From IMG/VR virus record IMGVR_UViG_3300012944_000025, positions 1 to 64,000 of that record: a DNA stretch of 64,000 bases. One strand, 5' to 3'. The notes below the pieces were generated by a model that saw nothing but the letters and a program-made list of their open reading frames with translations, did no database searches and was not told the origin of the DNA. This stretch comes from a virus. Below, in pieces: positions 1 to 37,502 of the stretch. The translations under genes and the position numbers were made by a program. Position 1 is the stretch's first letter, and every line of letters begins with the position of its first letter.

Positions 1-202
1 CCGAGGCGGTGGCGCTGTTCGAGCGCGCCCGGCCGTCGCTGTAGAAGTCGCATCTGCGTTGGATCTCCCCGTAGTTCGTCTTCGCGAGCCCGTGCGTGAT
101 GCCCGTGTTGACGACGACGCCACGGGGAAATACGCGGCCCTCGTCATCCTCCTCGTCGGGAAACGCGACCAGGCACGCCATGCAGTCCACGCGGCTATCC
201 AT
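1..202 (-). CDS. HCC family mini-protein, CxxC-first type, 3' truncated by window edge
   Basis: The visible 67 codons begin M-D-S-R-V-D-C-M-A-C-L-V (Cys7, Cys10), followed by T-G-I-T-H-G (His37) and Cys51. The four presumed metal ligands therefore occur in the order CxxC, H, C. The ATG overlaps the TAG of the preceding gene, which suggests translational coupling. The rest lies beyond the left edge, so the array continues there. Metal binding is inferred from ligand conservation across the family. Confidence 0.75.
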   Translation of the reverse strand, partial: MDSRVDCMACLVAFPDEEDDEGRVFPRGVVVNTGITHGLAKTNYGEIQRRCDFYSDGRARSNSATAS

Positions 203-665
203 CGCGCTCCGCCTCCGCCTCGTGTTTCTCCCATTCCCGACGCTGCCAGGCAATATGCTCCTCCTGATAGACCAAGAATCTTCGTGCCTCGGGCAGAAAC
301 GTCATCGTCTCCTCGGTCGGCGATTCGAGCCCCTCAAGCAGGCGGACGAGCCGCCTGGACACACGATGGATCACTTCGCCCGTCGTTGAGACACGAAAGC
401 CGCGCATCTGAGGCTTCTTGACCTTCTTAACCCTCGGTTGTTTCGGCGGAGCCTCCGCTGCCAAGCGCTGTTCCTCCACGACGATGTCGTGGTTGGTCTT
501 CTTGAGTCGAGCCTTGTCATTTGCGACGTCTGCGAGATGGGCCTCGCGCCGGGACCACTCCGCTTTGTCGTGGCACTTGCCCCACGTTTTGGCCTCCGTT
601 GCTCTGATTTCCAGGCGTGCTTGTAGTTCAGCTCTGAGCGCCTTGAGTCGTTCAAACTCTTCCAT
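195..665 (-). CDS. Hypothetical charged coiled-coil protein
   Basis: 156 residues with no recognised family. The first 80 residues are rich in Glu, Arg, Lys and Leu with heptad-like spacing, followed by a Lys/Pro-rich linker (about 85-100) and a C-terminal helical stretch ending in a very acidic/basic tail. The start at 665 is preceded by a GAGAGAGG-like ribosome site. Its stop overlaps the next gene's ATG. A DNA-binding or scaffolding role cannot be shown. Confidence 0.65.
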   Translation of the reverse strand: MEEFERLKALRAELQARLEIRATEAKTWGKCHDKAEWSRREAHLADVANDKARLKKTNHDIVVEEQRLAAEAPPKQPRVKKVKKPQMRGFRVSTTGEVIHRVSRRLVRLLEGLESPTEETMTFLPEARRFLVYQEEHIAWQRREWEKHEAEAERDG

Positions 666-683
666 CGGTGCTAGCCTCTCTCG

Positions 684-842
684 ATGATTGCCATCGTTCC
701 ACTTCTCGTCGCAGTCGTCGGCTTGCTCATCCACGCACTCGCGTCGAACACCAAGCTCGCGGAGGTCGGCCGCGCGCTCATGTGGTGCGGCATCCTGGTG
801 ACCTTGTGGGTCATGGCCGGCCGCACGGTGAAGGTGTTTTAG
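684..842 (+). CDS. Small phage-type membrane protein
   Basis: 52 residues with two hydrophobic segments (about 2-19 and 28-44) separated by a short polar loop containing A-S-N-T-K-L-A-E-V-G-R. This layout resembles the two-helix hypothetical membrane proteins common in tailed phages (from memory). It is divergent from the gene starting at 665 and its stop overlaps the end of the minus-strand gene at 839. No clear Shine-Dalgarno is visible, so start certainty is moderate. Confidence 0.6.
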   Translation: MIAIVPLLVAVVGLLIHALASNTKLAEVGRALMWCGILVTLWVMAGRTVKVF

Positions 843-1048
843 TCGCGCGCGATCGCCACCAGGCACGTCATGCAGTCGACGCGCCCTCCATGCCTAGGCG
901 CGCCTCGAACCCATCGCAGCATCAGTCCGATGTGCACCCAGTTCTCCGGCTCACAACCGAGCCGCGCGACATAGCTCCCCCCGCCCTCCTCGATAACCGC
1001 GTGGGTGACGTCGTTGGGCGTGGTGAGCGTCATGCCGTACCACGGCAT
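839..1048 (-). CDS. HCC family mini-protein
   Basis: 69 residues. Ligand set: His16 in N-D-V-T-H-A, Cys32 in L-G-C-E-P, and Cys59/Cys62 in V-D-C-M-T-C-L-V, close to the C terminus (H, C, CxxC order). The start codon overlaps the upstream TGA by one base (TGATG). It is the only CxxC-last member inside the otherwise CxxC-first block at the left edge. Confidence 0.75.
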   Translation of the reverse strand: MPWYGMTLTTPNDVTHAVIEEGGGSYVARLGCEPENWVHIGLMLRWVRGAPRHGGRVDCMTCLVAIARD

Positions 1049-1362
1049 CAGGACGGCGCCGCGCCGTTGACGAACAGGCGCCAGAGCAGCAGGGTGGTCG
1101 AGTCGACGAAGCCGTCGTGGAGTTTCTTGCCGAACACGTCTCTGGTGCACGTGTCGTCGATCTGGAACTCCATGTAGGCCTGGTCGCCATTGATAGCCAG
1201 GGCTGCGAAGCGGCCGTTGGGGCCGTCGACGCGGAACCCCGGACACAAGACGCCCGGCGGTTCGACCCACAACGAGCCGCGCGTGATGACGCAGTCATCG
1301 GGCAGGGTGTGGCGAGCCCAGCGCATCACGTCCTTCAGAGGCTTGGGCAGGTTGTTATTCAT
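1048..1362 (-). CDS. Hypothetical protein, 104 aa
   Basis: Not an HCC member and no family recognised. It is a mixed alpha/beta sequence with an acidic central part (E-F-Q-I-D-D-T) and a hydrophobic C-terminal T-T-L-L-L-W-R-L-F. The chosen ATG at 1362 is preceded by GAGG inside the palindrome at 1363-1377. An in-frame ATG at 1422 is an alternative. Its stop is coupled to the next HCC gene. Confidence 0.6.
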   Translation of the reverse strand: MNNNLPKPLKDVMRWARHTLPDDCVITRGSLWVEPPGVLCPGFRVDGPNGRFAALAINGDQAYMEFQIDDTCTRDVFGKKLHDGFVDSTTLLLWRLFVNGAAPS

Positions 1363-1377
1363 GTTTACCTCGTAAAC
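1363..1377 (-). promoter_or_regulatory. Palindromic element GTTTAC-N3-GTAAAC
   Basis: A perfect 6-bp inverted repeat with a 3-bp spacer that directly abuts the ATG at 1362 and contains its GAGG ribosome site. Related elements occur upstream of other transcription units in the window. It could be an operator, or part of a promoter for the genes to the left. Confidence 0.4.
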
Positions 1378-1383
1378 TTGTTC

Positions 1384-1417
1384 TGATGCACCAGGCAGGT
1401 CATGTTTCTCCCCGCCG
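1384..1417 (-). pseudogene. Relic of an HCC CxxC motif
   Basis: Between two intact genes the minus strand reads ATG then T-C-L-V-H-Q-N-K-F-T-R and a stop, a 12-codon frame preceded by GGGGAG. This matches the end of the family motif C-M-T-C-L-V without its first Cys or any His/Cys part. It lies out of frame with the upstream extension of the 1048 gene. I read it as the remains of a deleted family member. Confidence 0.45.
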
Positions 1418-1453
1418 GGCATTCCCGAGGACTCCCTCGAAAGGTGCCCGGGG

Positions 1454-1654
1454 CTACCTGGGAACCCGCTTAGTCCCGTCCGCAACAAGCCACCCGAAGC
1501 CATCCCACGCGAGCGTACACAGGGTGACGTGCATCTCACCGGCGAGCCAAAGCAGCGTGGCATGTGTGGTTCCCCTGCTGTCTCGGTAGGCACCCTCGCA
1601 TGGTAGGCCTTGGGCCTCGCGAACCAAGCATGTCATGCAGTCGATGTCGCTCAT
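1454..1654 (-). CDS. HCC family mini-protein, CxxC-first type
   Basis: 66 residues: Cys6/Cys9 in D-I-D-C-M-T-C-L-V, His31 in R-G-T-T-H-A and Cys46 in V-T-L-C-T. An extra Cys19 lies between the motifs. The C-terminal 20 residues are hydrophobic then basic and end in R-V-P-R, as in the two following members. The start overlaps the TGA of the gene upstream. Confidence 0.75.
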   Translation of the reverse strand: MSDIDCMTCLVREAQGLPCEGAYRDSRGTTHATLLWLAGEMHVTLCTLAWDGFGWLVADGTKRVPR

Positions 1655-1884
1655 CGGGGAACCGATCTGACCTCGTGGAGGGGTATCCCGCCTAGCCTCA
1701 CGTGCTGTGCGAGCGAGCAGGCCAGCACGCGAGCATCACGGTAGTCGACCGTGTAGTCCCCGACCTCCTGGCGCCGTATGATCAGGGTGCCATGCGTGAT
1801 GTGGTCGTAGTCCTGGTAGGTGGCGGAGCTGGGCATGCCCTGCCCCATTGCCACCAGGCAGGACATGCAGTCGACGTCGCTCAT
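1651..1884 (-). CDS. HCC family mini-protein, CxxC-first type
   Basis: 77 residues: Cys6/Cys9 (V-D-C-M-S-C-L-V), His31 (D-H-I-T-H-G) and Cys56 (V-L-A-C-S). The H-to-C spacing of 25 is longer than in its neighbours. It ends S-V-P-R. The start is coupled by ATGA to the gene at 1881-2078. Confidence 0.75.
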   Translation of the reverse strand: MSDVDCMSCLVAMGQGMPSSATYQDYDHITHGTLIIRRQEVGDYTVDYRDARVLACSLAQHVRLGGIPLHEVRSVPR

Positions 1885-2078
1885 CGCGGTACCCAGGTCG
1901 CCCCTGCGGTGCTCCACAGCTCCCGGTTGCGAGAGTCCCGGCGCATGGTGCACGCGAGCGCCGCTCTCGTCGGCGTGCGTAGTGTGGCGTGGGTGATCCC
2001 GTCGTCCCCGCGGTGAGTGCCGCCGGCGGGTACGCCTCGGGACAGCGCCACCAGGCAGGCCATGCAGTCGACGGTCAT
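1881..2078 (-). CDS. HCC family mini-protein, CxxC-first type
   Basis: 65 residues: Cys5/Cys8, His30 (D-G-I-T-H-A-T-L) and Cys43 (A-L-A-C-T). The C-terminal W-V-P-R matches the ends of the next two proteins in the array. Together with the shared region after the CxxC this suggests recent local duplication. One-base stop/start overlaps on both sides. Confidence 0.75.
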   Translation of the reverse strand: MTVDCMACLVALSRGVPAGGTHRGDDGITHATLRTPTRAALACTMRRDSRNRELWSTAGATWVPR

Positions 2079-2281
2079 TACCGCACCAACACGACACACC
2101 GCGTTGTCCAACCGGTTTGACCGTTTAGCTCGTACGTTCGTAGGCTGCAGGTGATGAAGTGGCTGGCTGTCCATGAGACTGTAGATACCGCGTGCACGAT
2201 GCCACCTCTCGAAGTTGTTGAGACGGCCTCTGGTGCGCCACGTCCCAGGTTGACCAAGCACGTCATGCAGTCGATGGTCAT
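2078..2281 (-). CDS. HCC family mini-protein, CxxC-first type
   Basis: 67 residues: Cys5/Cys8 (I-D-C-M-T-C-L-V), His30 (G-G-I-V-H-A) and Cys45 (F-I-T-C-S). A second Cys62 near the end is not shared by its neighbours. The ATG sits on the upstream TGA. Confidence 0.75.
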   Translation of the reverse strand: MTIDCMTCLVNLGRGAPEAVSTTSRGGIVHAVSTVSWTASHFITCSLRTYELNGQTGWTTRCVVLVR

Positions 2282-2583
2282 GGTCCGTACCTCACGGGAA
2301 ACTTCATCGGCTTCTTGGCGAGCTTGCGGAAGGCCATCTTGAAGCGCGCCCAAGACACAGAGGGCCGCGGTGCCTGCCGTGGCCGCAGCCCGCGCATCGC
2401 GCGAATCACCGCGTCGTACCAGAACATGCGGAAGTTGATCTTCCGGTCGAATCGGCACGTCAGTCGTTCCTGGCCCAGCCAGTCCGCGTACGTTGCGTGC
2501 GTGATGGCGCCGAGGATGAGGACGGGGCCATCGGCGGCGCGCATTTGCGCCTCGGCCACCAGGCAGGCCATGCAGTCGATCAT
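2278..2583 (-). CDS. HCC family mini-protein with basic C-terminal extension
   Basis: 101 residues. Cys4/Cys7, His29 (G-A-I-T-H-A-T) and Cys43 (R-L-T-C-R) lie in the first 45 residues. The remaining 55 are strongly basic (R-G-L-R-P-R-Q-A, F-R-K-L-A-K-K), suggesting nucleic-acid contact (inference). It has the longest tail among the CxxC-first members. Confidence 0.72.
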   Translation of the reverse strand: MIDCMACLVAEAQMRAADGPVLILGAITHATYADWLGQERLTCRFDRKINFRMFWYDAVIRAMRGLRPRQAPRPSVSWARFKMAFRKLAKKPMKFPVRYGP

Positions 2584-2804
2584 AGGCTAGCTCCCTTCCT
2601 CAACCGCCAGCGCAGGATTCTACCGCTCCCGCGGACGGGCTCGTATCGACACGCGGCCCGAATGATGCCGGGGCCCATCTCGTACATGGCTGCATGGCTG
2701 ACGCCCTTGTGCTTGATTCGATCGAGCATCACCGAGGTGTCGTAGTCGTCATCGAGCCCTCGCGCCAGGTTGACCAGGCACGTCATGCAGTCGACGTCCG
2801 TCAT
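2580..2804 (-). CDS. HCC family mini-protein, CxxC-first type
   Basis: 74 residues: Cys6/Cys9 (V-D-C-M-T-C-L-V), His37 (K-G-V-S-H-A) and Cys52 (R-A-A-C-R). An acidic insert D-D-D-Y-D lies between CxxC and His. The C-terminal 20 residues are basic. Coupled to both neighbours by 4-bp overlaps. Confidence 0.75.
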   Translation of the reverse strand: MTDVDCMTCLVNLARGLDDDYDTSVMLDRIKHKGVSHAAMYEMGPGIIRAACRYEPVRGSGRILRWRLRKGASL

Positions 2805-3043
2805 TGGTCCCTCAAGGCCCAGTACGACAGATGGCCCTTAAAGAACATCCAGCGCACGGCAATCTTGCTCCACGCGAAGACGTGAGCCGGAAGGCCGACG
2901 AAGTTGTCGGGGTCGCCAGGCAGGACGCTGGCGGTCACGGCGAGAGTCACGGCGCAGATGACGTGCCCGTGCACCATGGTTCTGCCGTCGGTCGGGCAGC
3001 CGCTCGCGAGCTTGACGAGACAGGACATGCAGTCGACACTCAT
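2801..3043 (-). CDS. HCC family member with His and Cys positions apparently exchanged
   Basis: 80 residues. Cys5/Cys8 are intact, but the usual His is replaced by Cys30 (G-H-V-I-C-A-V). The following ligand position, normally Cys, shows L-P-A-H-V-F with His54. This is a close paralogue of the gene at 3264-3515: both share K-L-A-x-G-C-P-T-x-G and L-P-A-H-V-F. A paired C/H exchange would keep a four-ligand metal site. Confidence 0.72.
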   Translation of the reverse strand: MSVDCMSCLVKLASGCPTDGRTMVHGHVICAVTLAVTASVLPGDPDNFVGLPAHVFAWSKIAVRWMFFKGHLSYWALRDQ

Positions 3044-3267
3044 GACCACACGCCGCCGCGGAGAACGAGCAGGTTTCGCCTTCCGTCTCTTGGAGATCCG
3101 CCCCAGCCCCCGCCTGCTCTCTTCATCCAACACGCCAACAGTCCCTTGTCCGCGTGGACGGTGAAGATCGCATGCGTGATTTGACCTTCGTCAGTGAGCC
3201 GCTCACCGGAGTCGTTGAGTCCCGTGGCAAGCGAGGTCAGGCACGTCATGCAGTCGACATCCGTCAC
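3040..3267 (-). CDS. HCC family mini-protein, CxxC-first type
   Basis: 75 residues beginning at a GTG that overlaps the upstream TGA (GTGA). Ligands: Cys6/Cys9 (V-D-C-M-T-C-L-T), His32 (G-Q-I-T-H-A) and Cys46 (L-L-A-C-W). A Gly-rich basic tail follows (A-G-G-G-W-G-G). It separates the two near-duplicate members on either side. Confidence 0.73.
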   Translation of the reverse strand: MTDVDCMTCLTSLATGLNDSGERLTDEGQITHAIFTVHADKGLLACWMKRAGGGWGGSPRDGRRNLLVLRGGVWS

Positions 3268-3515
3268 TGATTCCTCCGGGCCTTGCGAGGCACCCAATGC
3301 TCGAAAGACATCCATTGACCCAGGGTATTGCTATACGTAAAGACGTGTGCGGGCAAGACAATCAGACTGTCCGAGTCGTGCTGTGTGTCGGTTAGAACCG
3401 TGGCGCATACGATCCGCCCACGCATCATCGAGCCGCCGTTGGTCGGGCAACCTCGAGCGAGCTTGACGAGGCAGGACATGCAGTCGATGCCGTTCGCTAG
3501 GCGGTTCTCGGCCAC
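3264..3515 (-). CDS. HCC family member with His and Cys positions apparently exchanged
   Basis: About 83 residues from a GTG at 3515 (start uncertain; no ATG lies upstream of the motif). Cys12/Cys15 are present. The His position is Cys37 (G-R-I-V-C-A), and L-P-A-H-V-F supplies a His further on. Recent duplicate of the 2801-3043 gene: similarity extends over most of the length. Confidence 0.65.
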   Translation of the reverse strand: MAENRLANGIDCMSCLVKLARGCPTNGGSMMRGRIVCATVLTDTQHDSDSLIVLPAHVFTYSNTLGQWMSFEHWVPRKARRNQ

Positions 3516-4075
3516 GTCGGAAAGCCCTCGAGAATCTTGCCGTCCTGGCACAACACGATCCGGCTCTTGCCCTCGCCCCACCTGGACTGCATCAGGGCCC
3601 TCACGTCGTCAGGGAAGTCGTCGTATCGAGGCGGCGCGGACCAGTGATGCTTGAGCTTGGGCCGGTGAATCGCGACGCCACCATCGTCGAGCAGGTACAC
3701 GCGGTGCCCGAGCCCTGCGTGGTTCGCTGAGTCGCGGAGGAAGGCCTCGCTCGCCGGGGTGACGTGGCTGACCGAGACGCGGAAGTCCCCATACCTCTCC
3801 TCGCCCTTGGTCAACTCCTGATCCCTGTCGCTCATGCGACGCACGATCGAGCCCCACCGCCCGCCGAGTTCTCCCTTGGTCATCAGGTTGTTGACATGTC
3901 GAAGGCGATCTGTCTCGCCTGCACTCGACACGAAGGCCTTGAGCCAGGGTTTGATGCCCTCCGTGGGAACGGCTTCCAAGGTCTCGACTATCTTGGCCGC
4001 GACCTCGACGTCGGACGCCTCGCTGTTCAACAACAAGATCATGTCGTTCACGCTCTCGGTTTCGTTTTGCGTCAT
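3497..4075 (-). CDS. Hypothetical protein, 192 aa
   Basis: No family recognised and no HCC motif. It has a hydrophilic N terminus, a central H-V-N-N-L-M-T-K-G-E-L-G-G-R-W-G stretch and a C-terminal half rich in His and aromatic residues. A perfect AAGGAG stands before the ATG, unlike the coupled mini-genes, so it probably starts its own translation. It marks the border between the CxxC-first block to its left and CxxC-last members to its right. Confidence 0.7.
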   Translation of the reverse strand: MTQNETESVNDMILLLNSEASDVEVAAKIVETLEAVPTEGIKPWLKAFVSSAGETDRLRHVNNLMTKGELGGRWGSIVRRMSDRDQELTKGEERYGDFRVSVSHVTPASEAFLRDSANHAGLGHRVYLLDDGGVAIHRPKLKHHWSAPPRYDDFPDDVRALMQSRWGEGKSRIVLCQDGKILEGFPTWPRTA

Positions 4076-4097
4076 GTCCGTGTCTCCTTGTCTGCGT

Positions 4098-4271
4098 CTA
4101 TTCTCGCGCCATCAGGACCAGGCAGGTCATGCAGTCGACGGGGGCGTTGGTCACCGTAAAGTGCAAGCGCACGCGGTCCTCAGGCGTCATTCGTAAGCCG
4201 CACAGAGTCGCCAACCACAGTACGTACGGGTTCTCGTGGTGAACGATTGTATCCAAGCTTAGATGCCTCAT
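4098..4271 (-). CDS. HCC family mini-protein, minimal core
   Basis: 57 residues, close to the bare domain: His11 or His12 (T-I-V-H-H-E), Cys24 (A-T-L-C-G-L) and Cys47/Cys50 (P-V-D-C-M-T-C-L-V). The protein stops six residues after the motif. It has the compact H, C, CxxC order seen through most of the window. Its ATG shares a base with the upstream TAA. Confidence 0.75.
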   Translation of the reverse strand: MRHLSLDTIVHHENPYVLWLATLCGLRMTPEDRVRLHFTVTNAPVDCMTCLVLMARE

Positions 4272-4501
4272 TACAGCTCTGCCTCGCGGACCAGGCAGAT
4301 CATGCAGTCGACTGGACCCTCGGTCCTCCTGCTCCGAGGGTCTCCCTTGGGCACGAGGCCCTCTGCCTCGAGCGGATGCTCGCGCTCGACGAACCAGACC
4401 CGGCAGAGCGTGTGGGACATCCAAGCCGCCGTCCGATGCCTCTCGAGCCCCAGGACCATCTTGCGATGCGTGACGACGTCGCCGTCGATGACGACGTTCA
4501 C
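4271..4501 (-). CDS. HCC family mini-protein
   Basis: 76 residues from a GTG coupled by GTGA. Ligands: His12 (D-V-V-T-H-R), Cys33 (H-T-L-C-R) and Cys66/Cys69 (V-D-C-M-I-C-L-V). The loop between Cys33 and the CxxC is long and charged. Ile in place of the usual small residue inside CxxC is unique in the window. Confidence 0.74.
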   Translation of the reverse strand: MNVVIDGDVVTHRKMVLGLERHRTAAWMSHTLCRVWFVEREHPLEAEGLVPKGDPRSRRTEGPVDCMICLVREAEL

Positions 4502-4779
4502 GACCTCGCCTCCAGCACCAGGCAGGTCATGCAGTCGACCTCGACCTCGGTCGGCATCCCTTGCGGGAACGTCGGCGGGATCATGAGGTTGGGTACCCAG
4601 CGGATGCCGCACAGGGTGCGCGGCAGGCCCGTCCGGCCGTCGTGCCCGTGGGTGACCTCGCCGATCCGGACACGGAGCTTGCCCTGGCAGGCCAGGAGGA
4701 TTCGGTCGTAGGAGGGATCGAGGCCGGCGAGCTGGCGCTGCTGCTCCCGGATCTCCTGCAGCGTCGCCCGGCGCGTCAC
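4498..4779 (-). CDS. HCC family protein with N-terminal helical extension
   Basis: 93 residues. About 35 residues precede the domain, including a Gln/Glu/Arg-rich helix (Q-E-I-R-E-Q-Q-R-Q-L). His44 (G-E-V-T-H-G), Cys57 (R-T-L-C-G-I) and Cys83/Cys86 complete the set. GTG start, coupled by a 4-bp overlap. Confidence 0.74.
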   Translation of the reverse strand: MTRRATLQEIREQQRQLAGLDPSYDRILLACQGKLRVRIGEVTHGHDGRTGLPRTLCGIRWVPNLMIPPTFPQGMPTEVEVDCMTCLVLEARS

Positions 4780-5018
4780 GATCGCCCCGCTTTCACGAGA
4801 CACGACATGCAGTCGACGTCCCTCGACGTCCGCGTGGCCAGCTCGACGGGCCACAGCCTCCGGTGCTCCTTGTGCGTGTAGGAGATGCCGCATAGCGTCT
4901 GCGCCTTCACGTACCCGTTGTTGTACGCGTGGGTGATCACGCCGATGCGGACCTGGTTGCGGAACTTGCGGTGCTTGCGCAGCGGCACGCCGAGCGCGCG
5001 GACTCGCTCGTTCCTCAT
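4776..5018 (-). CDS. HCC family mini-protein with basic N terminus
   Basis: 80 residues: His30 (G-V-I-T-H-A), Cys43 (Q-T-L-C-G-I) and Cys70/Cys73 (V-D-C-M-S-C-L-V). The first 24 residues are strongly basic (R-K-H-R-K-F-R). It is most similar to the 4498-4779 member around R-I-G-x-[VI]-T-H and T-L-C-G-I, a local duplication pair. Confidence 0.75.
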   Translation of the reverse strand: MRNERVRALGVPLRKHRKFRNQVRIGVITHAYNNGYVKAQTLCGISYTHKEHRRLWPVELATRTSRDVDCMSCLVKAGRS

Positions 5019-5299
5019 GGCACCGCCCACATGCACATGCGCATGGTGCACTCGATCATCTCGCCTTCCGACGCTCGAGACGTCCTGCGGATCGCGCAGC
5101 CCATGCAGTCCACGTCGTCGGTGGTCTCCACGGCCATGCTCCTCAGGGCACGGGCACCGCACTCGAACAGAGCCTCTTCAAACATCTCGCCGCGGCGCGT
5201 GTACTCCACCACGCGGTGAACCATAGCGTCCCCGGCCCTGACGGCGGGAGGATCGGCTGGCATCATGCTCCAGTAAATCTCGCTGCCGATAGGCTTCAT
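5015..5299 (-). CDS. HCC family protein with extra C-terminal cysteines
   Basis: 94 residues: His28 (A-M-V-H-R), Cys47 (F-E-C-G-A) and Cys65/Cys68 (V-D-C-M-G-C-A-I). Unlike most members it runs 26 residues past the CxxC, with two further Cys in E-C-T-M-R-M-C-M-W. The L-V after CxxC is replaced by A-I. Confidence 0.72.
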   Translation of the reverse strand: MKPIGSEIYWSMMPADPPAVRAGDAMVHRVVEYTRRGEMFEEALFECGARALRSMAVETTDDVDCMGCAIRRTSRASEGEMIECTMRMCMWAVP

Positions 5300-5550
5300 A
5301 TGTTCGGTCCCTTCTTGATCGAGCCTACCAACGTGACGGCGGGCTCGCGCCCCTCGACGAAGAGCCACTCGGGCTTCACCAGGCAGGTCATGCAGTCGAC
5401 GTCTGCGTCGGATTGATGGCCCATTGGCCGGTCGCCCATGTCGCCGATCACGTACTGGCCGTTGCGAACGTACTGGATCCCGCATCGCGTGATCTGGCGC
5501 GTGCTGTACCGGGCGTGTGTGATGCCGGTGCTCGAGATGCAGACATTCAT
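5296..5550 (-). CDS. HCC family mini-protein with C-terminal extension
   Basis: 84 residues: His12 (T-G-I-T-H-A), Cys23 (I-T-R-C-G-I) and Cys53/Cys56 (V-D-C-M-T-C-L-V), followed by a 28-residue tail containing F-V-E-G-R-E-P. The H-to-C spacing of 11 is near the family minimum. Coupled to both neighbours. Confidence 0.75.
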   Translation of the reverse strand: MNVCISSTGITHARYSTRQITRCGIQYVRNGQYVIGDMGDRPMGHQSDADVDCMTCLVKPEWLFVEGREPAVTLVGSIKKGPNI

Positions 5551-5777
5551 GGCTCTCCCACCGAAATTAGGGTGTTGGTGTCGATGAATATGGCCCCTTT
5601 GCGCATCTCGTCGTTGCCTTCCCCGGACTGGAAGTCGCATAGCCGGTAGCACCCGCCACGCACGCGCCATCGCACGCGGTGGACGATGCCGGTGCCGGGG
5701 TCCCGCCAGCCGATGGGCGTGGTCACGCCGGTCACCAGGCAGGCCATGCAGTCGACGTCGACGGGCTTCGCGCTCAT
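5547..5777 (-). CDS. HCC family mini-protein, CxxC-first type, outlier position
   Basis: 76 residues: Cys10/Cys13 (V-D-C-M-A-C-L-V), His33 (T-G-I-V-H-R) and Cys47 (Y-R-L-C-D-F). It is CxxC-first although surrounded by CxxC-last genes. It heads the minus-strand run to its left; the plus-strand gene at 5811 is divergent, so a promoter should lie in 5778-5810. Confidence 0.74.
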   Translation of the reverse strand: MSAKPVDVDCMACLVTGVTTPIGWRDPGTGIVHRVRWRVRGGCYRLCDFQSGEGNDEMRKGAIFIDTNTLISVGEP

Positions 5778-5810
5778 GTTCTTATCCTATAAGCATGTTA
5801 CCCTGGTCTC
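5778..5810. promoter_or_regulatory. Divergent intergenic region with A/T-rich promoter-like sequence
   Basis: The 33 bp between the divergent starts at 5777 and 5811 contain TTCTTATCCTATAAG, A/T-rich against a high-GC background, with a TATAAG hexamer. It presumably drives one or both directions. No Shine-Dalgarno is obvious for the plus-strand gene. Confidence 0.35.
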
Positions 5811-6218
5811 ATGTTCAACCAGGTGATGATCGAGGCCGTGGCCATTCAAATGCGCGAGCGCCTGGGCCTCGAACCCTGGGAGCCGTTCGCGGCCAGGGCC
5901 CGCGTCAGGCTCCGTGCGTACGGCAACCCCCTCGAGCGTGATCCGGATAGAGGCACCGGCAGGTCGACGCGGGAGGCGTTGCGAGCGCTGGCGGAGTGCC
6001 GGGTGCGAAGCATCGGGACCATTCATGCAATGGGCGATCGGCACGACTTCCGGCGCGTCCGCGACTTGGCCTTCGGTCTCAACCTGCTCGTCCGCGTCGT
6101 CAACGGCGATCCGGATCATCTTCGGGGAACAGCTGGAGGAGTCCTGGTTCACTGGGACCATCACGCGGCGAGCATGGAGCGGAAGAGGCGACTTCAATCT
6201 CCCCACACGGGTTGGTGA
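5811..6218 (+). CDS. Hypothetical protein with P-loop-like motif
   Basis: 135 residues. The D-R-G-T-G-R-S-T-R-E-A-L segment near residue 50 resembles a nucleotide-binding loop seen in some phage accessory proteins (recalled, not verified), but no Walker B is clear. It is the only plus-strand gene between 843 and 18.4 kb. Its 3' end overlaps the tail of the minus-strand HCC gene ending at 6100. The antisense ORF has no recognisable features. Confidence 0.55.
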   Translation: MFNQVMIEAVAIQMRERLGLEPWEPFAARARVRLRAYGNPLERDPDRGTGRSTREALRALAECRVRSIGTIHAMGDRHDFRRVRDLAFGLNLLVRVVNGDPDHLRGTAGGVLVHWDHHAASMERKRRLQSPHTGW

Positions 6219-6441
6219 ACGCGAACGCGATGGGGTCCGGCCGGCGCGCCAGGCGAATCAGGCACGTCATGCAGTCGACAGGGTCGTCGACTACCTCGAC
6301 GATCTCCTTCGCGCGTCTGCTCGGGTCGTTCTTCCAGACGGTCCGAATACCGCAGGCGGTGTACGCGCGCAGCTCGTAGTTGAGGTCGACGTCGTTCGCG
6401 GAGTGCGTGAGGGCGTCGCCCATGAGGCGGACGTTGCTCAC
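6100..6441 (-). CDS. HCC family protein with long C-terminal tail
   Basis: 113 residues. The domain occupies the first 64: His13 (D-A-L-T-H-S), Cys30 (Y-T-A-C-G-I) and Cys57/Cys60 (V-D-C-M-T-C-L-I). The remaining 50 residues are Pro-rich and low-complexity and overlap antisense to the 5811-6218 gene. The tail may reflect read-through past an old stop (inference). Confidence 0.7.
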   Translation of the reverse strand: MSNVRLMGDALTHSANDVDLNYELRAYTACGIRTVWKNDPSRRAKEIVEVVDDPVDCMTCLIRLARRPDPIAFAFTNPCGEIEVASSAPCSPRDGPSEPGLLQLFPEDDPDRR

Positions 6442-6447
6442 GGTCCT

Positions 6448-6627
6448 TCACGACCGCCATTGGCGAGCCAGCCACAGCGCATCCACGATAGGCCACGCGA
6501 ACGCGAATACGGCGACTTCCTCAGGGTCATGGAAACGTTTACGCACGTGCCGGATGACGCCGATCGCAGCCAGATGAATGAGAGCGATCAAGCAATAGAC
6601 TACGCCGATGGCGGATTCTAGGTTCAT
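6448..6627 (-). CDS. Small two-helix membrane protein
   Basis: 59 residues with hydrophobic segments at about 5-26 (G-V-V-Y-C-L-I-A-L-I) and 40-54 (V-A-V-F-A-F-A-W-P-I), joined by a basic loop R-H-V-R-K-R-F. The topology would suit a phage inner-membrane protein, and a holin-like role is possible but unsupported. The ATG overlaps the upstream TAG/TGA region. Confidence 0.6.
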   Translation of the reverse strand: MNLESAIGVVYCLIALIHLAAIGVIRHVRKRFHDPEEVAVFAFAWPIVDALWLARQWRS

Positions 6628-6956
6628 AGCTTGTGGTAGTTGCACGGGTCTTCCGCATAGCAGCACTCGGTGATGTGATCGTAGGGCGGCCCGAACTTCT
6701 GCATCATCCAGCAGATATCACCGAAGTGGTTGAGGCTTGGTTTGCTCGTCCGGAGAGGAACCTCGAAGACCTCGGCCCGCGTCAGGCAGGTCATGCAGCT
6801 GACCGGCTCGTCAACTTTTGCGGCGTCGTCTTGAAATTCGATGCCGCACCGGGTCCTGCACAGCAGCGTGGACCACAGCGCGAGGTGCACCATGGCTCCG
6901 CTGCTCCGTAGCGTGGTCGGGGCGCTTTCGCCTTGGAGCCGGGGGACCCGCGTCAC
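6624..6956 (-). CDS. HCC family protein with second Cys/His cluster
   Basis: 110 residues: His24 (G-A-M-V-H-L), Cys37 (T-R-C-G-I-E) and Cys54/Cys57 (P-V-S-C-M-T-C-L-T). The C-terminal 50 residues end H-I-T-E-C-C-Y-A-E-D-P-C-N-Y-H, a second potential metal site. GTG start at 6956 overlaps the upstream TGA. Confidence 0.7.
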   Translation of the reverse strand: MTRVPRLQGESAPTTLRSSGAMVHLALWSTLLCRTRCGIEFQDDAAKVDEPVSCMTCLTRAEVFEVPLRTSKPSLNHFGDICWMMQKFGPPYDHITECCYAEDPCNYHKL

Positions 6957-7231
6957 AGGTAGCCCAGCCGCTTAGCGACGCGCTCGATCTCGTCTCTGGC
7001 CTCCTCCGGGGTAGCGCCGCGGTCCAGACAGGCCGTGACGATCTCGATCATCTTTCGCGCCCAATTTCGACCTTCTTGATTGCTGTAGATCAGCCACGAA
7101 ACCATTGTTTCGTGGAACGCCTTCTCGAATCGGTCCTTGACGTCTTTCGACAACAGGTCCGCGATCGCGGTTGAGGCACCGTATGCAATCGCCGCGCCCT
7201 CACCGTATACATCGTGCTTGATTTCGATCAT
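6953..7231 (-). CDS. Hypothetical helical protein, 92 aa
   Basis: No family recognised. Mostly helical, with alternating Ala/Glu/Lys stretches such as A-T-P-E-E-A-R-D-E-I-E-R-V-A. A single Cys gives no metal site. It interrupts the HCC array and is stop/start-coupled on both sides. Confidence 0.65.
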   Translation of the reverse strand: MIEIKHDVYGEGAAIAYGASTAIADLLSKDVKDRFEKAFHETMVSWLIYSNQEGRNWARKMIEIVTACLDRGATPEEARDEIERVAKRLGYL

Positions 7232-7554
7232 TTGATTTTCATCTCCTCGCTCACGAAGTTGATCTTGTTGACCGCGGCAACGTTGGCTACCGACACGCCG
7301 ATGCTCTGGCAGGAGTTGAAGATCACCTTACGCAAAGGACGCACCAGGCACGTCATGCAGTCGCACTCGTCCTCGACGACCACGGCGACGACGCAAGCGT
7401 TGGTCCGCTGGTCTTCTGCTCGCCATGCGAAGTCAGCCACGCACTCCGTGTAGCCGCCTACGTCGTCCGCCCAGACCACGTTGTGCGTCAGCACGTCGCC
7501 CGCCAGGCGCACGCGGCGGTCTTCCGATGTCCCGCCGATACGACTGATGTTCAC
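7228..7554 (-). CDS. HCC family protein, divergent
   Basis: 108 residues: His24 (D-V-L-T-H-N), Cys38 (Y-T-E-C-V) and Cys66/Cys69 in E-C-D-C-M-T-C-L-V, with additional Cys54 and Cys64. Thirty-five residues follow the CxxC. ATG coupled to the upstream gene by ATGA. Confidence 0.72.
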   Translation of the reverse strand: MNISRIGGTSEDRRVRLAGDVLTHNVVWADDVGGYTECVADFAWRAEDQRTNACVVAVVVEDECDCMTCLVRPLRKVIFNSCQSIGVSVANVAAVNKINFVSEEMKIK

Positions 7555-8635: not shown

Positions 8636-8639
8636 CGAG

Positions 8640-9691: not shown

Positions 9692-9704
9692 CGAAGCTTC
9701 CTTA

Positions 9705-9719
9705 GTTTACCGCGTAATC
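9705..9719 (-). promoter_or_regulatory. Palindromic element GATTAC-N3-GTAAAC
   Basis: On the minus strand this reads GATTACGCGGTAAAC, a 15-bp inverted repeat with one mismatch. It sits 13 bp before the leader ORF in one of the few non-coding gaps of the array. It is a likely promoter or operator for the genes from 9651 leftwards. Confidence 0.4.
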
Positions 9720-30130: not shown

Positions 30131-30239
30131 GACGCCTCTTGTACGCGCTCACCGCAACGGCGCCCCGACGCCGTGTGTGGGCCTGCACCCCGGCACCGAC
30201 GCGTAGCAGTCGGAGCAGGATCCGCAGAAGCGCCTTCAT
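30123..30239 (-). CDS. 38-aa basic micro-protein
   Basis: ATG 30239 overlaps the upstream TGA (ATGA), giving M-K-A-L-L-R-I-L-L-R-L-L-R followed by a very Arg-rich end. The alternating Leu/Arg N terminus could form an amphipathic helix. Supported mainly by the coupling pattern. Confidence 0.4.
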   Translation of the reverse strand: MKALLRILLRLLRVGAGVQAHTRRRGAVAVSAYKRRRA

Positions 30240-30628
30240 CGGCGCCTTCCACGGATCCAGAACTTCCGCCTCTTGTCGTCAAAGATCGCTGTCGACTTTC
30301 CCGTTGTTCGTGGCGTGCTGATCAGAATCGTGCCGCTCGACCGCGACGACATTCGCCCGGTGCTCGTGCGGAACGGTGGTAGCGGCGCGCCCGGCGGGCG
30401 AACCAAGCACGCCATGCAGTCCACCTCCTTGCCTGGCGCCGCCGGCGTGTTCGCGGGGATGTAGCTCCCCGTGCACCACCAGCTGCTGCCCTCCTGCGTG
30501 ACATAGTGGCCCCGTTTCGCGGGGTTGCGCCGACGCTTTTGCTTCGCGGTCTTGACGAACCTGACGGTGCCGCGGACGTGGTGGGTGACGCCGTGCTCGT
30601 CGGTCGCCTCGCTGATCCCCCTGGTCAC
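30236..30628 (-). CDS. HCC family protein with basic loop and tail
   Basis: 130 residues from GTG: His16 (H-G-V-T-H-H), Cys52 (S-W-W-C-T) and Cys71/Cys74 (V-D-C-M-A-C-L-V). The H-to-C loop is expanded and very basic (K-Q-K-R-R-R-N-P-A-K-R), and the 50-residue tail is also basic. Nucleic-acid contact is plausible (inference). Confidence 0.7.
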   Translation of the reverse strand: MTRGISEATDEHGVTHHVRGTVRFVKTAKQKRRRNPAKRGHYVTQEGSSWWCTGSYIPANTPAAPGKEVDCMACLVRPPGAPLPPFRTSTGRMSSRSSGTILISTPRTTGKSTAIFDDKRRKFWIRGRRR

Positions 30629-30813
30629 TTCTTGTTCTTGTAGAATATCGCGATCGTCACGCAGTGATACTCGTTGTCCGAGGACTGCGTGAGCCGCACG
30701 TCGGTGATGACGAACGTCGGGTTGCGCTTGCGCCACGCGGTCACGTCGTCACCCATCTTCTCGCGATCCACATGCTTCGATACGCTGAACATCGCCATTC
30801 CATCGAAATCCAT
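30625..30813 (-). CDS. Small protein resembling Cse60-type folds
   Basis: 62 residues: F-S-V-S-K-H-V-D-R-E-K-M, then helix, then F-V-I-T-D-V-R-L-T-Q-S and V-T-I-A-I-F-Y-K. The beta-alpha-beta-beta pattern resembles Cse60-family small proteins found in sporulating bacteria and phages (weak, from memory). ATG with AGGAGA upstream. Confidence 0.55.
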   Translation of the reverse strand: MDFDGMAMFSVSKHVDREKMGDDVTAWRKRNPTFVITDVRLTQSSDNEYHCVTIAIFYKNKK

Positions 30814-31999: not shown

Positions 32000-32245
32000 T
32001 CACATTAGCCTGATGCAGGCCATGCACGTCACGCTGGTAATTAGCGTCGACACGCGCTTGACTTGGTTGACGTGTGGGTTTGGGCACTTCCAGCCTTCGC
32101 AGGCCAGGGAGAGCTTCGGCTTACCGGCTTTCTGCAGCTCGCGGACGATGTTGCGCCCGGAATCGTTCGCCTTGCCGTGCGTCTCGGAGTACGGCGCCCA
32201 GTGGGTGATGCCGACGCCGTCTCGGACTGCGATACCTACGGCCAT
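32000..32245 (-). CDS. HCC family protein
   Basis: 81 residues: His15 (V-G-I-T-H-W), Cys49 (S-L-A-C-E) with Cys54 extra, and Cys74/Cys77 (V-T-C-M-A-C-I-R). The H-to-C loop is long (34). CxxC lies at the very C terminus. Confidence 0.7.
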   Translation of the reverse strand: MAVGIAVRDGVGITHWAPYSETHGKANDSGRNIVRELQKAGKPKLSLACEGWKCPNPHVNQVKRVSTLITSVTCMACIRLM

Positions 32246-32484
32246 TATCGGATGCCTTCCATCTCAATCTCGATGGTCACGGCGCCGTCTGGGTGGACGG
32301 AGATGACCCTGCCGATCATGTTCTTGTTCGTGTCGAACAAACATCGACGAGCCTCGGCGACGAGGCACGACATGCAGTCCACGACCGCGTCGTCCGCCGG
32401 GCGAGGGTCCATCGGCTCGAGGTTGATCCCGCACCAGGTCCGGCGGAGGTCGTCCATGAACTCGTCGACGCCGTGAGTGATCAC
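32245..32484 (-). CDS. HCC family protein, domain at extreme N terminus
   Basis: 79 residues from a GTG that is itself part of V-I-T-H-G (His4): Cys18 (R-T-W-C-G-I) and Cys37/Cys40 (V-D-C-M-S-C-L-V). The next 38 residues form strands (G-R-V-I-S-V-H-P-D-G-A-V-T-I-E-I). The start directly at the His motif suggests the frame was trimmed at the gene border. Confidence 0.7.
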   Translation of the reverse strand: MITHGVDEFMDDLRRTWCGINLEPMDPRPADDAVVDCMSCLVAEARRCLFDTNKNMIGRVISVHPDGAVTIEIEMEGIR

Positions 32485-33044
32485 GGCCCCCTCCCGACGA
32501 GCGTCATGCACGTCATGCAGTCGACCATCGCACTCTCATAGGTCGCGCGGGCCTTGCTGAGCCTGTCGAAGTTGACGGCGCTCGCGCCCGCGAGCGGGTG
32601 TATCCCGAGCAGGTGCGCGCCACAGACCCCGCGCAGGCGCCTGCCGGCTGGCAGCCTCGCGTGCGTGATCCCCTGGTCGTCGACCCACGGCGTGGGCGTC
32701 CCGAGGTCCAGCGACAGCAGGAGACCGCGGGGCGTGATTACGCCGTTCGTCTCGATCAGGTCGCGGGTGAGCAGCGCGCTGCGCGAATTCGGCTGCGCCA
32801 TGCGCTCGTTGACCAGCACGTTCACCCACGTGTTGGGATCGAATGGCACCGCCCCCGTGGCGAACGGGTCATCGAGCTTGCGGCACCTGTCGCACGTTGC
32901 CTGGCGACCGTTCGCGGGGGTTACAGGCCTGTCGAACGGCTTGCTGCACAGCGCGATCACGGTGGTCGGACTCGACCGCGTCAGGTTCGCCACGTGAACC
33001 GCGGTGCCCTGCGAGGCCACGAAAGCCCAGCTCAGCACGGTCAC
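32481..33044 (-). CDS. Two-domain HCC family protein with linker
   Basis: 187 residues from GTG. Domain 1: His17 (T-A-V-H-V), Cys33 (A-L-C-S-K), Cys51/Cys54 (T-C-D-R-C). Domain 2: His128 (Q-G-I-T-H-A), Cys141 (G-V-C-G-A), Cys176/Cys179 (V-D-C-M-T-C-M-T). A 70-residue linker separates them. The first CxxC has drifted to a generic zinc-ribbon form, the second keeps the family signature. Confidence 0.7.
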   Translation of the reverse strand: MTVLSWAFVASQGTAVHVANLTRSSPTTVIALCSKPFDRPVTPANGRQATCDRCRKLDDPFATGAVPFDPNTWVNVLVNERMAQPNSRSALLTRDLIETNGVITPRGLLLSLDLGTPTPWVDDQGITHARLPAGRRLRGVCGAHLLGIHPLAGASAVNFDRLSKARATYESAMVDCMTCMTLVGRGP

Positions 33045-33307
33045 GATCGCCTTGCTGCTCGGACGAGGCACGCCATGCAGTCGATCGGCTTGTCGCTGAC
33101 GATCGGGTAGAGGGGGATGCCAAACAGCCTACAAGGCCAGCCCCAGTCGTGCGTCACGCCGTTCTCGTCGATGGTCGTCGCGCCGTGCGGCGCGCAGAGC
33201 CCGCAAGGAATGCCGTCGCTTCTCGGTGCCGTCCGATGACAGCGCGAGCAGCGGTCTCCTGTACAGGGGCGCCGTTCACCCGGACGGGCTGGCATCGTCT
33301 CGATCAC
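33041..33307 (-). CDS. HCC family protein fused to a Cys-rich ribbon
   Basis: 88 residues from GTG. An N-terminal ribbon (Cys15, Cys20, Cys23, then Cys35/Cys38 in P-C-G-L-C) precedes an HCC domain: His53 (N-G-V-T-H-D), Cys59 and Cys77/Cys80 (I-D-C-M-A-C-L-V). The H-to-C spacing of six is the shortest seen. Two metal sites likely. Confidence 0.7.
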   Translation of the reverse strand: MIETMPARPGERRPCTGDRCSRCHRTAPRSDGIPCGLCAPHGATTIDENGVTHDWGWPCRLFGIPLYPIVSDKPIDCMACLVRAARRS

Positions 33308-34330: not shown

Positions 34331-34704
34331 TTGGAATCCTCCAACCATTTCATCCGACGTGTGAACAGCCTGTCCTTCGCAGCCGGCGACAGCCCCTCCA
34401 TGCAGGGTCCGCCGGCCCTCATGTCCGAGAAGAAGTTCTCCTCGATCTGCGACCACAGCTCGAGGTAGGTCCAGCCCTCCTCGCAGCCGAAGTGATTCCG
34501 GATCTCGACGCACGACAAGCACGTCTTGAACTCCGACCACGACCCGTCCCACAGGCCCTTGACGTGCTCGTACTTCGTACCCTTGGGGATCGTCTCGTTA
34601 CACTCGGTACAGCGATGGTCCTTGGCCGCCTTGCGCGTGTGCACGTTGCTCACCGACGGGTGGTCGCCGTGCTCGCTGCTGAGGGGGCAGCACGTGAATG
34701 TCAC
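34327..34704 (-). CDS. C4 zinc-finger protein
   Basis: 125 residues from GTG. A H-R-C-T-E-C-N-E-T-I-P-K-G-T-K-Y ribbon with the partner pair C-L-S-C gives a four-Cys zinc site of the kind in many phage small proteins. The C-terminal part is helical. Distinct from the HCC family because the pairs are CxxC...CxxC. Confidence 0.68.
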   Translation of the reverse strand: MTFTCCPLSSEHGDHPSVSNVHTRKAAKDHRCTECNETIPKGTKYEHVKGLWDGSWSEFKTCLSCVEIRNHFGCEEGWTYLELWSQIEENFFSDMRAGGPCMEGLSPAAKDRLFTRRMKWLEDSK

Positions 34705-35093
34705 GCGTCCTCGAGCGCGACGTCGTACTCGTCGTCGTCCCAGTGCGCGGATTCGCCGCAGCGCGGGCACGTCCAGAACCAGTCCGGACGGTTCAGCTGA
34801 CGCAAGTACTGCTCCTCGGTGAGGAACTGCTGGCCGTGATCGTCGCAGAGCACCGCGAACGGCGTGCGCCGGGCCACCAGGCACGACATGCAATCGACGG
34901 GATCGTCGGTGGTCGGTCCGGTTCCGTCGGGGGCGAGTCGCGCGCGGACCACGCGGAAGCCCATCGCGGCGAGGTTCACGCCCGGCGGCTCGTCGAACAC
35001 GATGACGCCGCACGCCGTGGTCGCCGTCCGCCAGACGCGGACGTCGTGCACCAGGCCGTCGACGCAGCGCACGTTCGCCCGGTGCGCCGTCAC
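34701..35093 (-). CDS. HCC family protein fused to zinc ribbon
   Basis: 130 residues from GTG. HCC domain: His16 (G-L-V-H-D), Cys28 (T-A-C-G-V), Cys68/Cys71 (V-D-C-M-S-C-L-V). Then L-C-D-D-H-G and W-T-C-P-R-C-G-E-S, a second ribbon, and a very acidic tail D-D-D-E-Y-D. Domain order HCC then ribbon is the reverse of the 33041 protein. Confidence 0.7.
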   Translation of the reverse strand: MTAHRANVRCVDGLVHDVRVWRTATTACGVIVFDEPPGVNLAAMGFRVVRARLAPDGTGPTTDDPVDCMSCLVARRTPFAVLCDDHGQQFLTEEQYLRQLNRPDWFWTCPRCGESAHWDDDEYDVALEDA

Positions 35094-36014: not shown

Positions 36015-36262
36015 CGCAACCTCACGTACAACCCCATCCTGTGGGCGCCATCGTGTCCCTTCGGCAGCTCGCAATACGAGTCCTCGCAGTGAGGTGGCTT
36101 GATGGTCTCGGCCAGGCCTGACCCGCCGCAAGCCTGACACGATTGCCAGCCATGCCCCCATCCGACGAAGGTCATCCCAACGGGATGATTCACCTCCTCA
36201 GTGTCCGGCGCGCACGATGGGCACAGCTCTCGTCCGGCGCCGTCGAGAGTGATCTTGCTCAT
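36011..36262 (-). CDS. Cys-rich ribbon protein, DnaJ-like CxxCxGxG
   Basis: 83 residues: C-P-S-C at 14-17, C-Q-A-C-G-G-S-G (DnaJ-type zinc knuckle) at about 42-49, and C-E-D-S-Y-C with G-H-D-G-A-H near the end. Likely two zinc sites. Small proteins with these motifs are common in tailed phages; function unknown. Confidence 0.65.
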   Translation of the reverse strand: MSKITLDGAGRELCPSCAPDTEEVNHPVGMTFVGWGHGWQSCQACGGSGLAETIKPPHCEDSYCELPKGHDGAHRMGLYVRLR

Positions 36263-36444
36263 GGGTCGATCTTCCAGTGCCCGACGGCAACGCCATCCTG
36301 GCCTCGAATGTCGCCCTCCTTGGTCTCGATCGAGATGAACTTGTTGTGCCCGACGGACAGCAGGTACAGGTACAGCGCGACGAGCTTGCGCCCCTTCTCG
36401 TCGTCGACGACATCAGGGATGTCGATAACCGCGGTCAGGCGCAC
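36259..36444 (-). CDS. Hypothetical beta-rich protein, 61 aa
   Basis: GTG start. R-L-T-A-V-I-D-I-P-D-V-V-D then K-L-V-A-L-Y-L-Y-L-L-S helix and strands. No Cys. No family recognised. Confidence 0.55.
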   Translation of the reverse strand: MRLTAVIDIPDVVDDEKGRKLVALYLYLLSVGHNKFISIETKEGDIRGQDGVAVGHWKIDP

Positions 36445-36848
36445 GTCTTCCTCGCCTTCTTGCGCCGGGGTGTCCGGGCGAGCGTCCGGGCCGTGGCCTC
36501 GGCTCGCTCCCGTTCCTCGGTCGCGAGCCGCTCCTGGTGGAGTTTGTGGTACTTCATGAAGTCACTCCTGACGCGGTTCAGGTCCTCCACCTGGCCGGTG
36601 AAGGTGCTGAGGACGTACCAAGACCGGCCGGGCATCAGCGGGTGACTGCCGTACTGCAGGCGGCAGAACCGGATCTGAATGGCCTTGGCCTCCTCGATGG
36701 TGTCGACGCTGAACACGGGCAGCGCCCTGCCGTTGAACACCTTCTCCTTGGTGACGGTGTCCCGATAGGTCACCGTGCCGTCCGCGCAGACGTGGATCAT
36801 GTAGCGCCGCTTGAACGCGGCGTTGATTTCCTCGTTGGTTATGGTCAT
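36435..36848 (-). CDS. Hypothetical protein, 137 aa
   Basis: N-terminal helix then Y-M-I-H-V-C-A-D-G-T-V-T-Y-R-D strands and a long basic C-terminal helix (L-A-T-E-E-R-E-R-A-E-A-T-A-R) ending R-R-K-K-A-R-K. No family recognised. Confidence 0.6.
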   Translation of the reverse strand: MTITNEEINAAFKRRYMIHVCADGTVTYRDTVTKEKVFNGRALPVFSVDTIEEAKAIQIRFCRLQYGSHPLMPGRSWYVLSTFTGQVEDLNRVRSDFMKYHKLHQERLATEERERAEATARTLARTPRRKKARKTCA

Positions 36849-37063
36849 TTGACCCCGCTGCATCGCGGGCATCGCAGCTTGTCCTTCGGGCGGGCGGTCA
36901 ACGTCCAGCCGTGAGGCAGCGCGTCCTCTTCGATGGTGAAGGTTGCCAGCGTACGCCCCAGTCCTTGGGATTCGTAGCTGTTGTACCGAGCCGTCGCCGG
37001 TAGGATCACCGACTGCGTCTCCTTGCACTCGTCGCAGCGCAGCGTGCACGGTATCTCGAGCAT
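36845..37063 (-). CDS. Two-CxxC zinc ribbon protein, 72 aa
   Basis: C-D-E-C near residue 10 and C-P-R-C near the C terminus bracket a beta-rich core, a classical ribbon. Not HCC (no His motif). ATG 37063 follows GAGGA. Confidence 0.65.
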   Translation of the reverse strand: MLEIPCTLRCDECKETQSVILPATARYNSYESQGLGRTLATFTIEEDALPHGWTLTARPKDKLRCPRCSGVK

Positions 37064-37098
37064 CCTCGTTCTCCTCCGGTCGACAGGTTACCCGACAG

Positions 37099-37290
37099 CT
37101 AGCCGTGCAGCCCGTTGCGCACGCGCTGGATGCGAACGAGCGCGTTGCTGTACGCTTTCTTGTCCGTCTCGTCCGCCTGCTTGTTTTGACCGAGCTTGTG
37201 GATTCGCTCCTCCGCCTGTGACAGCACCTCGCTGACCTTGGTTAGGCATTCGCTAAGCTCGATGTCGATGAAACCTTCAGCCCTGCTCAT
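37099..37290 (-). CDS. Hypothetical helical protein, 63 aa
   Basis: Helical (L-T-K-V-S-E-V-L-S-Q-A-E-E-R-I-H-K) with a basic end. Coupled to the HCC gene upstream by ATGA. No family recognised. Confidence 0.58.
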   Translation of the reverse strand: MSRAEGFIDIELSECLTKVSEVLSQAEERIHKLGQNKQADETDKKAYSNALVRIQRVRNGLHG

Positions 37291-37502
37291 GTGTTGTCGC
37301 TTTCTTGCCGTACGAGGCAGGTCATGCAATCGACATCGGCGCTGCGGGGACGGTCCTTGTCGTCCCAGCAGCTCCGCAACCGACGACTGGCCCCGCAGGG
37401 AGCCCGCGCCGTGTACCAGCCGGCGTGGCGGTTGTCGCGACGCTGGTCGGAAAGGGGTAACCAGGCATGCGTGATGCCCGTCTTGTCGCGCCACGCGCTC
37501 AC
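37287..37502 (-). CDS. HCC family mini-protein
   Basis: 71 residues from GTG: His12 (T-G-I-T-H-A), Cys36 (R-A-P-C-G-A) with Cys45 extra, and Cys59/Cys62 (V-D-C-M-T-C-L-V). Basic H-to-C loop (R-R-D-N-R-H). It is the last member before a 14-kb gap to the isolated copy at 51783. Confidence 0.73.
   Translation of the reverse strand: MSAWRDKTGITHAWLPLSDQRRDNRHAGWYTARAPCGASRRLRSCWDDKDRPRSADVDCMTCLVRQESDNT

Follow-up and report, generated by a model that had tools for sequence, protein, structure and literature searches.

A large and partly circularly permuted family of small H-C-CxxC proteins in a group of uncultivated tailed phages

Large lytic phages carry early blocks of short, overlapping genes, which lie on one strand, vary between close relatives and comprise many unrelated genes. 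The array described here, from the virus record IMGVR_UViG_3300012944_000025 (hereafter G000), is instead filled over 69% of positions 839-16709 by one domain family, whose members share a histidine (H), a cysteine (C) and a CxxC "knuckle". The record is that of an uncultivated phage of 89,580 bases, and the window analysed consists of its bases 1-64000; since PHROGs matches beyond the window include a large terminase subunit, a DNA polymerase and a baseplate protein, G000 is a tailed phage. The N-terminal domain (PylSn) of pyrrolysyl-tRNA synthetase (PylRS) also has the order H, C, CxxC, with a Gly three residues before the His and a Thr before the knuckle, the H and C residues being its zinc ligands. 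Reviews describe it as a small zinc-binding domain. PylSn (PDB 5ud5, 5v6x) differs from the phage family in being a single copy within a tRNA synthetase, its own family model finds no match here and the profile score is no more than suggestive; moreover, its ligand order is that of the normal-order members but not of the 11 permuted ones. Among Pfam families, zf-HC3 (PF16827), a zinc-finger family, aligns with the last two thirds of member 4098-4271 (E-value 0.0058), but this best member reaches 17.3 bits against a gathering cut-off of 25, two of 110 members are listed at E ≤ 1, and none exceeds the cut-off in G000 or 17 related records. As for DUF3039 (PF11238), it matches weakly in the multi-unit proteins of two relatives, at 13 and 14.5 bits, under its 22.7-bit gathering cut-off.

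No accepted match was obtained in Pfam, PHROGs, NCBIfam or PADLOC. Within PHROGs (38,880 families, threshold E ≤ 0.001), the best E-value was 0.012 for the 34 members of the profile A2 (see below) and 0.0067 for eight proteins including two permuted ones. A literature search, largely outside subscription papers, retrieved no description of such a family. Expanded families of small zinc domains are already known; what is new here is how large such a family has become in phages, that its permutation is ongoing and that its knuckle is specific to each genome.

A total of 58 family open reading frames (ORFs) were extracted from the window, all on the minus strand, 57 of them starting within positions 1-37502 and 44 lying inside 839-16709. 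This supports the preliminary claim of an expanded and divergent H-C-CxxC family, estimated there at about 59 genes, in one phage-like genome. Over the whole record, the profile built from 34 members (A2) retrieved 56 ORFs at E < 1e-3, rising to 58 at E < 0.01, vs. none at either threshold when the same ORFs were reversed. The strict knuckle, [VILAP][DTNS]C[MI]xC[LIV], occurs 50 times on the minus strand of 1-37502 and never on the plus strand, while 50 dinucleotide shuffles gave a mean of 0.04 and a maximum of 1; the looser H..C..CxxC pattern was observed 43 times (shuffle mean 0.9, maximum 4). The consensus reads G-x-[VIT]-H ... [T]-x-C-[G] ... V-[DT]-C-x-x-C-[LI]-[VA]. When 220 hits, taken from eight records, were aligned to the profile, the residues present at the four ligand positions were H in 202/202, C in 214/215, C in 217/217 and C in 214/215, an invariance that comes partly by construction, the profile having been made from such proteins. 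Members are mostly short (57-100 amino acids in 47 of the 58), as had been stated. Stop-start overlaps do join many of them: at 28 of the 58 starts that were chosen, the gene shares 4 bases or 1 base with the stop of another member, a count that leans high because the start picker favoured overlapping starts. The scattered single copies also mentioned earlier are real, e.g. 34701-35093 and 37287-37502, to which 51783-52007 is added outside the interval first reported. The members are distributed as follows.

1-202, minus strand: permuted member (CxxC first), truncated by the record end
839-1048, minus strand: normal-order member (H-C-CxxC)
1454-3515, minus strand: nine permuted members in a row (CxxC, H, C), mostly with 4-base overlaps; the first five are 1454-1654, 1651-1884, 1881-2078, 2078-2281 and 2278-2583, the last four 2580-2804, 2801-3043, 3040-3267 and 3264-3515
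2801-3043, minus strand: permuted member of that row with a Cys at the His position and a His (in LPAHVF, placed by eye) near the third Cys
3264-3515, minus strand: sister of the exchanged-ligand member 2801-3043
4098-4271, 4271-4501, 4498-4779, 4776-5018, 5015-5299, 5296-5550, minus strand: six normal-order members, three of which have collinear orthologues in the related record G002
5547-5777, minus strand: permuted member with a collinear G002 orthologue
6100-6441, 6624-6893, 7228-7554, 7551-7808, 7805-8029, 8399-8653, minus strand: six normal-order members
8640-9083, minus strand: two H-C-CxxC units in one ORF
9058-9675, minus strand: three H-C-CxxC units in one ORF, with knuckles CMTC, CVPC and CPDC
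9718-9915, 9912-10124, 10121-10333, 10330-10539, minus strand: normal-order members, first four of eight
11480-11689, 12000-12230, 12227-12487, 12491-12772, minus strand: normal-order members, last four of eight
13107-13367, minus strand: broken-looking member that has lost a knuckle Cys (CMAR in place of CMxC), probably decaying
13364-13579, 14103-14273 (both starts uncertain), 14698-14916, 14913-15137, 15147-15392, minus strand: normal-order members, first five of ten
15379-15615, 15612-15806, 16025-16288, 16285-16512, 16500-16709, minus strand: normal-order members, last five of ten
23757-23975, 26020-26445, 28080-28370, 28367-28696, minus strand: scattered members, first four of six (starts uncertain)
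30032-30130, 30236-30736, minus strand: scattered members, last two (starts uncertain), the former a broken-looking 32-codon fragment without the His part
32000-32245, 32245-32484, 32481-33044 (two units), 33041-33295, minus strand: four chained members
34701-35093, 37287-37502, minus strand: single members
51783-52007, minus strand: single member outside the interval first reported
68756-68992 (L001:4756-4992), plus strand: additional permuted copy, beyond the window

The ligand order, earlier thought to be fixed, is not: 11 of the 58 members have the CxxC first, followed by G-x-x-H and a Cys. Nine of these are consecutive (1454-3515), another is found at 5547-5777 and the last is cut by the record end. 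Their short N-termini are well placed, since for most of the nine the start lies four bases ahead of the stop of the preceding gene. In the sisters 2801-3043 and 3264-3515, a Cys stands at the His position and, by eye, a His in LPAHVF lies near the third Cys of the others; His and Cys thus seem to have been exchanged, with three Cys and one His retained, which is what metal binding predicts. An ORF of G002 (26825-27100; L009:6825-7100) has a double-knuckle layout, CxxC-H-C-CxxC, as would be expected of an intermediate when the fusion of tandem units is followed by the loss of one knuckle. With a profile made from the permuted members, G002 was the only one of 12 related records to give matches, and the permuted form therefore looks derived in the G000/G002 lineage. 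The copy at 68756-68992 sits exactly between two tail-region genes that abut in G002 and looks like a clean single-gene insertion. With normal, permuted and double-knuckle forms present in close relatives, the array catches circular permutation in progress.

G002 (156 kb) was found by scanning a viral collection with a DNA pattern for the knuckle and holds 19 family ORFs at E < 0.01. Positions 41.7-89.6 kb of G000 are collinear with it at 82-93% nucleotide identity, and collinear array genes at 70-76%, while most of the G000 array falls where the G002 record ends. Bases 1-127 of G002 are identical to its bases 1468-1594 (L008); this exact repeat suggests that the assembly broke within the array, and genes missing from G002 can therefore not be taken as lost. 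The same scan yielded another contig (L003) with one pattern match, where no family-like ORF was present. A terminase search brought the set to 18 records, G002 included, and 11 of these have family matches at E ≤ 0.001 with A6, a profile from other clades: 59 in G012 (188 kb), 41 in G007, 35 in G013, 29 in G015, 28 in G009, 24 in G011, 7 in G014, 4 each in G006 and G016, 3 in G002 and 2 in G005. Members of G007, G011, G012, G014 and G015 had gone into A6, so the counts for these five records are partly by construction, unlike the others; in addition, G009 repeats much of G007, and G013 much of G012. Concerning the seven records without an A6 match, six are shorter than 32 kb and the seventh, G018 (102 kb), has a terminase only 45% identical. 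The window's own profile matched in 7 of 17 records at E ≤ 0.1.

No convincing family match was seen in eleven cultured phage records. Eight of them, searched with A6, gave one weak partial match, in Xanthomonas phage LucasX (E 0.026, limited to positions 4-31), and three Streptomyces phages searched with the profile A5 gave none, a result for which the tool itself cautions that an empty answer shows nothing. By tblastn, three members found nothing below E 0.6. A motif scan of Streptomyces phage Hiyaa (43.5 kb) gave 0 occurrences vs. 59 in the scanned parts of G012, and one Hiyaa shuffle gave 1. The link to actinobacterial mini-proteins raised in the preliminary description was not confirmed, no match being present in the three Streptomyces phages or the Arthrobacter phage tested. 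One scan of bacterial genome contigs with the knuckle DNA pattern returned three stretches, about the number expected by chance by our estimate; their ORFs scored E 7e-6, 0.0017 and 0.0021 with the profile, but had been picked by the motif and lack the His and first Cys before the knuckle. Among the records searched, the family is confined to a single clade, made up of large tailed phages that are uncultivated.

The likeness between neighbouring genes of the array (mean 24.9 bits) exceeds that in every one of 2000 shuffled orders (21.7 bits, standard deviation 0.52), and none of 2000 shuffles reaches it for the normal-order members alone either, so tandem duplication fits. The family would have grown by such duplication, together with unit fusion and circular permutation. 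The two-unit proteins 32481-33044 and L071:5611-6200, from distant clades, show by eye a common architecture of unit, LTxRG-like stretch and unit. The latter, from G007, has reciprocal-best partners in G011, G012 and G015, and the two-unit architecture is perhaps that of an ancestral member.

Selection was analysed on 90 between-record reciprocal-best pairs, after dropping those above 98% identity; 14 had saturated synonymous sites. The ratio of nonsynonymous to synonymous substitution rates (dN/dS) was below 1 in 75 of the 76 computable pairs, some of which recur, G009 and G007 being nearly the same, and the lone exception covers 22 codons. Between G000 and G002, three full-length orthologues gave 0.34, 0.49 and 0.70, vs. 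0.05-0.16 for nine core genes. Family orthologues are thus retained, mostly under purifying selection that is looser than on core genes, and the diversifying selection suggested in the preliminary description was not supported, although family genes do evolve faster than core ones.

The AlphaFold model of the normal-order member 15612-15806 has a mean predicted local distance difference test (pLDDT) score of 84.3 and a predicted template modelling score of 0.69. It places strands at residues 9-12, 18-24 and 31-33, around the His and first Cys, and a helix at 55-63 right after the CxxC. A permuted member was modelled with modest confidence (pLDDT 70.5), and for this reason only the helix at its knuckle is considered. 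Members are probably zinc-binding. With Foldseek, no match at E ≤ 0.001 was found in PDB or BFVD for the normal-order model, or in PDB for the permuted one; small proteins of Streptomyces phages appear among the weak matches, with E-values of 0.29 or worse.

Which function would call for so many copies is a matter of several readings. The one we tentatively prefer, at well short of even confidence, is that members are early-expressed adaptors for host takeover or counter-defence. The knuckle and the helix after it would form a constant face docking on one common partner, while the hairpins and loops between the His, the first Cys and the CxxC would vary from copy to copy, each engaging a different target; one constant face with variable loops suits adaptors with a common partner and differing targets. 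Zinc, early expression, partner and targets are all things we infer within the adaptor reading. The array would probably be read as long polycistronic messages, each copy being an individually retained gene. No terminator-like site was detected on the coding strand of the array in 1-18200, all seven found there being on the plus strand, and early genes fit because this chained one-strand block without such a site adjoins a conserved replication and structural region.

A common partner is also suggested by the residue after the first knuckle Cys, which is M in 51/53 members of G000 and 17/19 of G002, V or A in 39/40 of G012, I or V in 6/6 of G014, and L or F in 25/34 of G007, 19/25 of G009, 12/17 of G011 and 23/24 of G015. 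Of 19 reciprocal-best pairs between clades, 15 consist of proteins that each carry the knuckle residue of their own genome; the four exceptions carry M or I, never the residue of the partner genome. The knuckle residue thus follows the genome and not the orthologue, which points to one common partner or to gene conversion. Several observations count against the adaptor reading. In the 19-pair set, several pairs share a protein and one V/V pair lies in overlapping sets. The codon TGC makes up 96% of 116 Cys codons in knuckles vs. 82% of 125 elsewhere, and because knuckle codons are somewhat more uniform, gene conversion is a possible cause of the pattern. The rows of the alignments A4-A6 were chosen by the H..C..CxxC pattern, which partly forces their invariant columns. 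The dense array (1-18 kb) also contains non-member genes, none of which was detected close to an array in those parts of the other clades' records that were retrieved. Finally, scanning the members against PADLOC gave no match, in a collection that covers defence and not counter-defence. Were the copies host-takeover factors, they would point to many host targets.

Rather unlikely, yet tied to the boldest lead, is an RNA-binding set: the domain would be a distant relative of the zinc- and tRNA-binding PylSn, and the copies would bind different tRNAs or structured RNAs, for instance redirecting host translation or shielding RNAs from host nucleases. When A4 was compared with the PDB sequences, the top match was the PylRS N-domain 5v6x (E 0.092), over the whole motif and with all four H/C positions aligned. 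Aligned with PylSn by hhalign, A6 gave P 3.7e-5 (probability 71%), and A4 and A5 gave P 6.6-6.7e-4 (probability 27%), the score being reached by 0 of 150 PylSn shuffles with the four ligands held for A6 and 1 of 150 for A5. These P values are however overstated, PylSn being the best of 177,635 PDB sequences, and it was not listed with A2, A5 or A6, where a probably unrelated stretch of Man1 scored E 0.24 and 0.0075. The PylS_Nterm model (TIGR03912, NCBIfam) had no match at E ≤ 10 in G000 and did not figure in the list of 11 families obtained for 110 members, and neither PylRS entry was among the 50 matches listed by Foldseek or VIA. No tRNA gene was found in the 64-kb window, against a few in G002, G007 and G009, and a direct search for a pyrrolysine link gave none in viral contigs, plasmids or phages. 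Homology with PylSn is thus a suggestive but unproven lead. Should the members bind RNA, they could bear on the origin of the orphan tRNA-binding domain of the pyrrolysine system, since, according to one review (PMC11467909), that domain showed at its discovery no significant similarity to known RNA-binding families. That both descend from a zinc- and RNA-binding mini-domain, with phages keeping an RNA-fitted library on the knuckle as platform and PylSn recruited from such a pool, is in our view an unlikely extension.

Also unlikely are transcription regulators, i.e. small zinc proteins that bind the RNA polymerase of the host or of the phage, with a separate protein for each promoter class or infection phase. 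A common docking face would suit a single hub such as RNA polymerase, and Spt5/DSIF chains (Z up to 3.3) and Mfd are among the weak matches that VIA gives for the model, with NusG and DSIF in Foldseek at E > 1. Nevertheless, no fold match is significant: KOW/SH3-like barrels (Spt5, ribosomal proteins) reach Z 3.4 at best, middling Z values being common according to the tool, without any Foldseek E ≤ 0.001, and dozens of regulators would be unusual. Distinctly improbable is a mostly selfish or near-neutral proliferation, in which recombination between the conserved knuckle sequences would have spread units that have little function individually: tandem likeness, decaying copies, the clean insertion at 68756 in G000 that is missing from G002 and the faster change than in core genes speak for it, but orthologues are retained with dN/dS < 1, the ligands are kept and arrays occur in many records. 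Dozens of divergent, individually retained mini-domain copies per phage, throughout a clade, would amount to a natural library of unusual size, built on a minimal scaffold for a metal site.

Concerning the other genes of the window, an AAA ATPase (16706-18061, minus strand; Pfam AAA, 57.8 bits) lies immediately upstream of the array and shares its strand, and no relative of it was found in the fetched parts of other records. A 477-amino-acid protein at 21287-22720 matches at its C-terminus the mobile domain of PEP-utilising (phosphoenolpyruvate) enzymes (37.3 bits), which is odd for a phage. Finally, 41756-54477 is a nucleotide and DNA block, conserved in G002, with Pfam matches to the GP88 family, thymidylate synthase (Thy1) and deoxynucleotide monophosphate kinase, and a helicase resembling phage DNA helicases.

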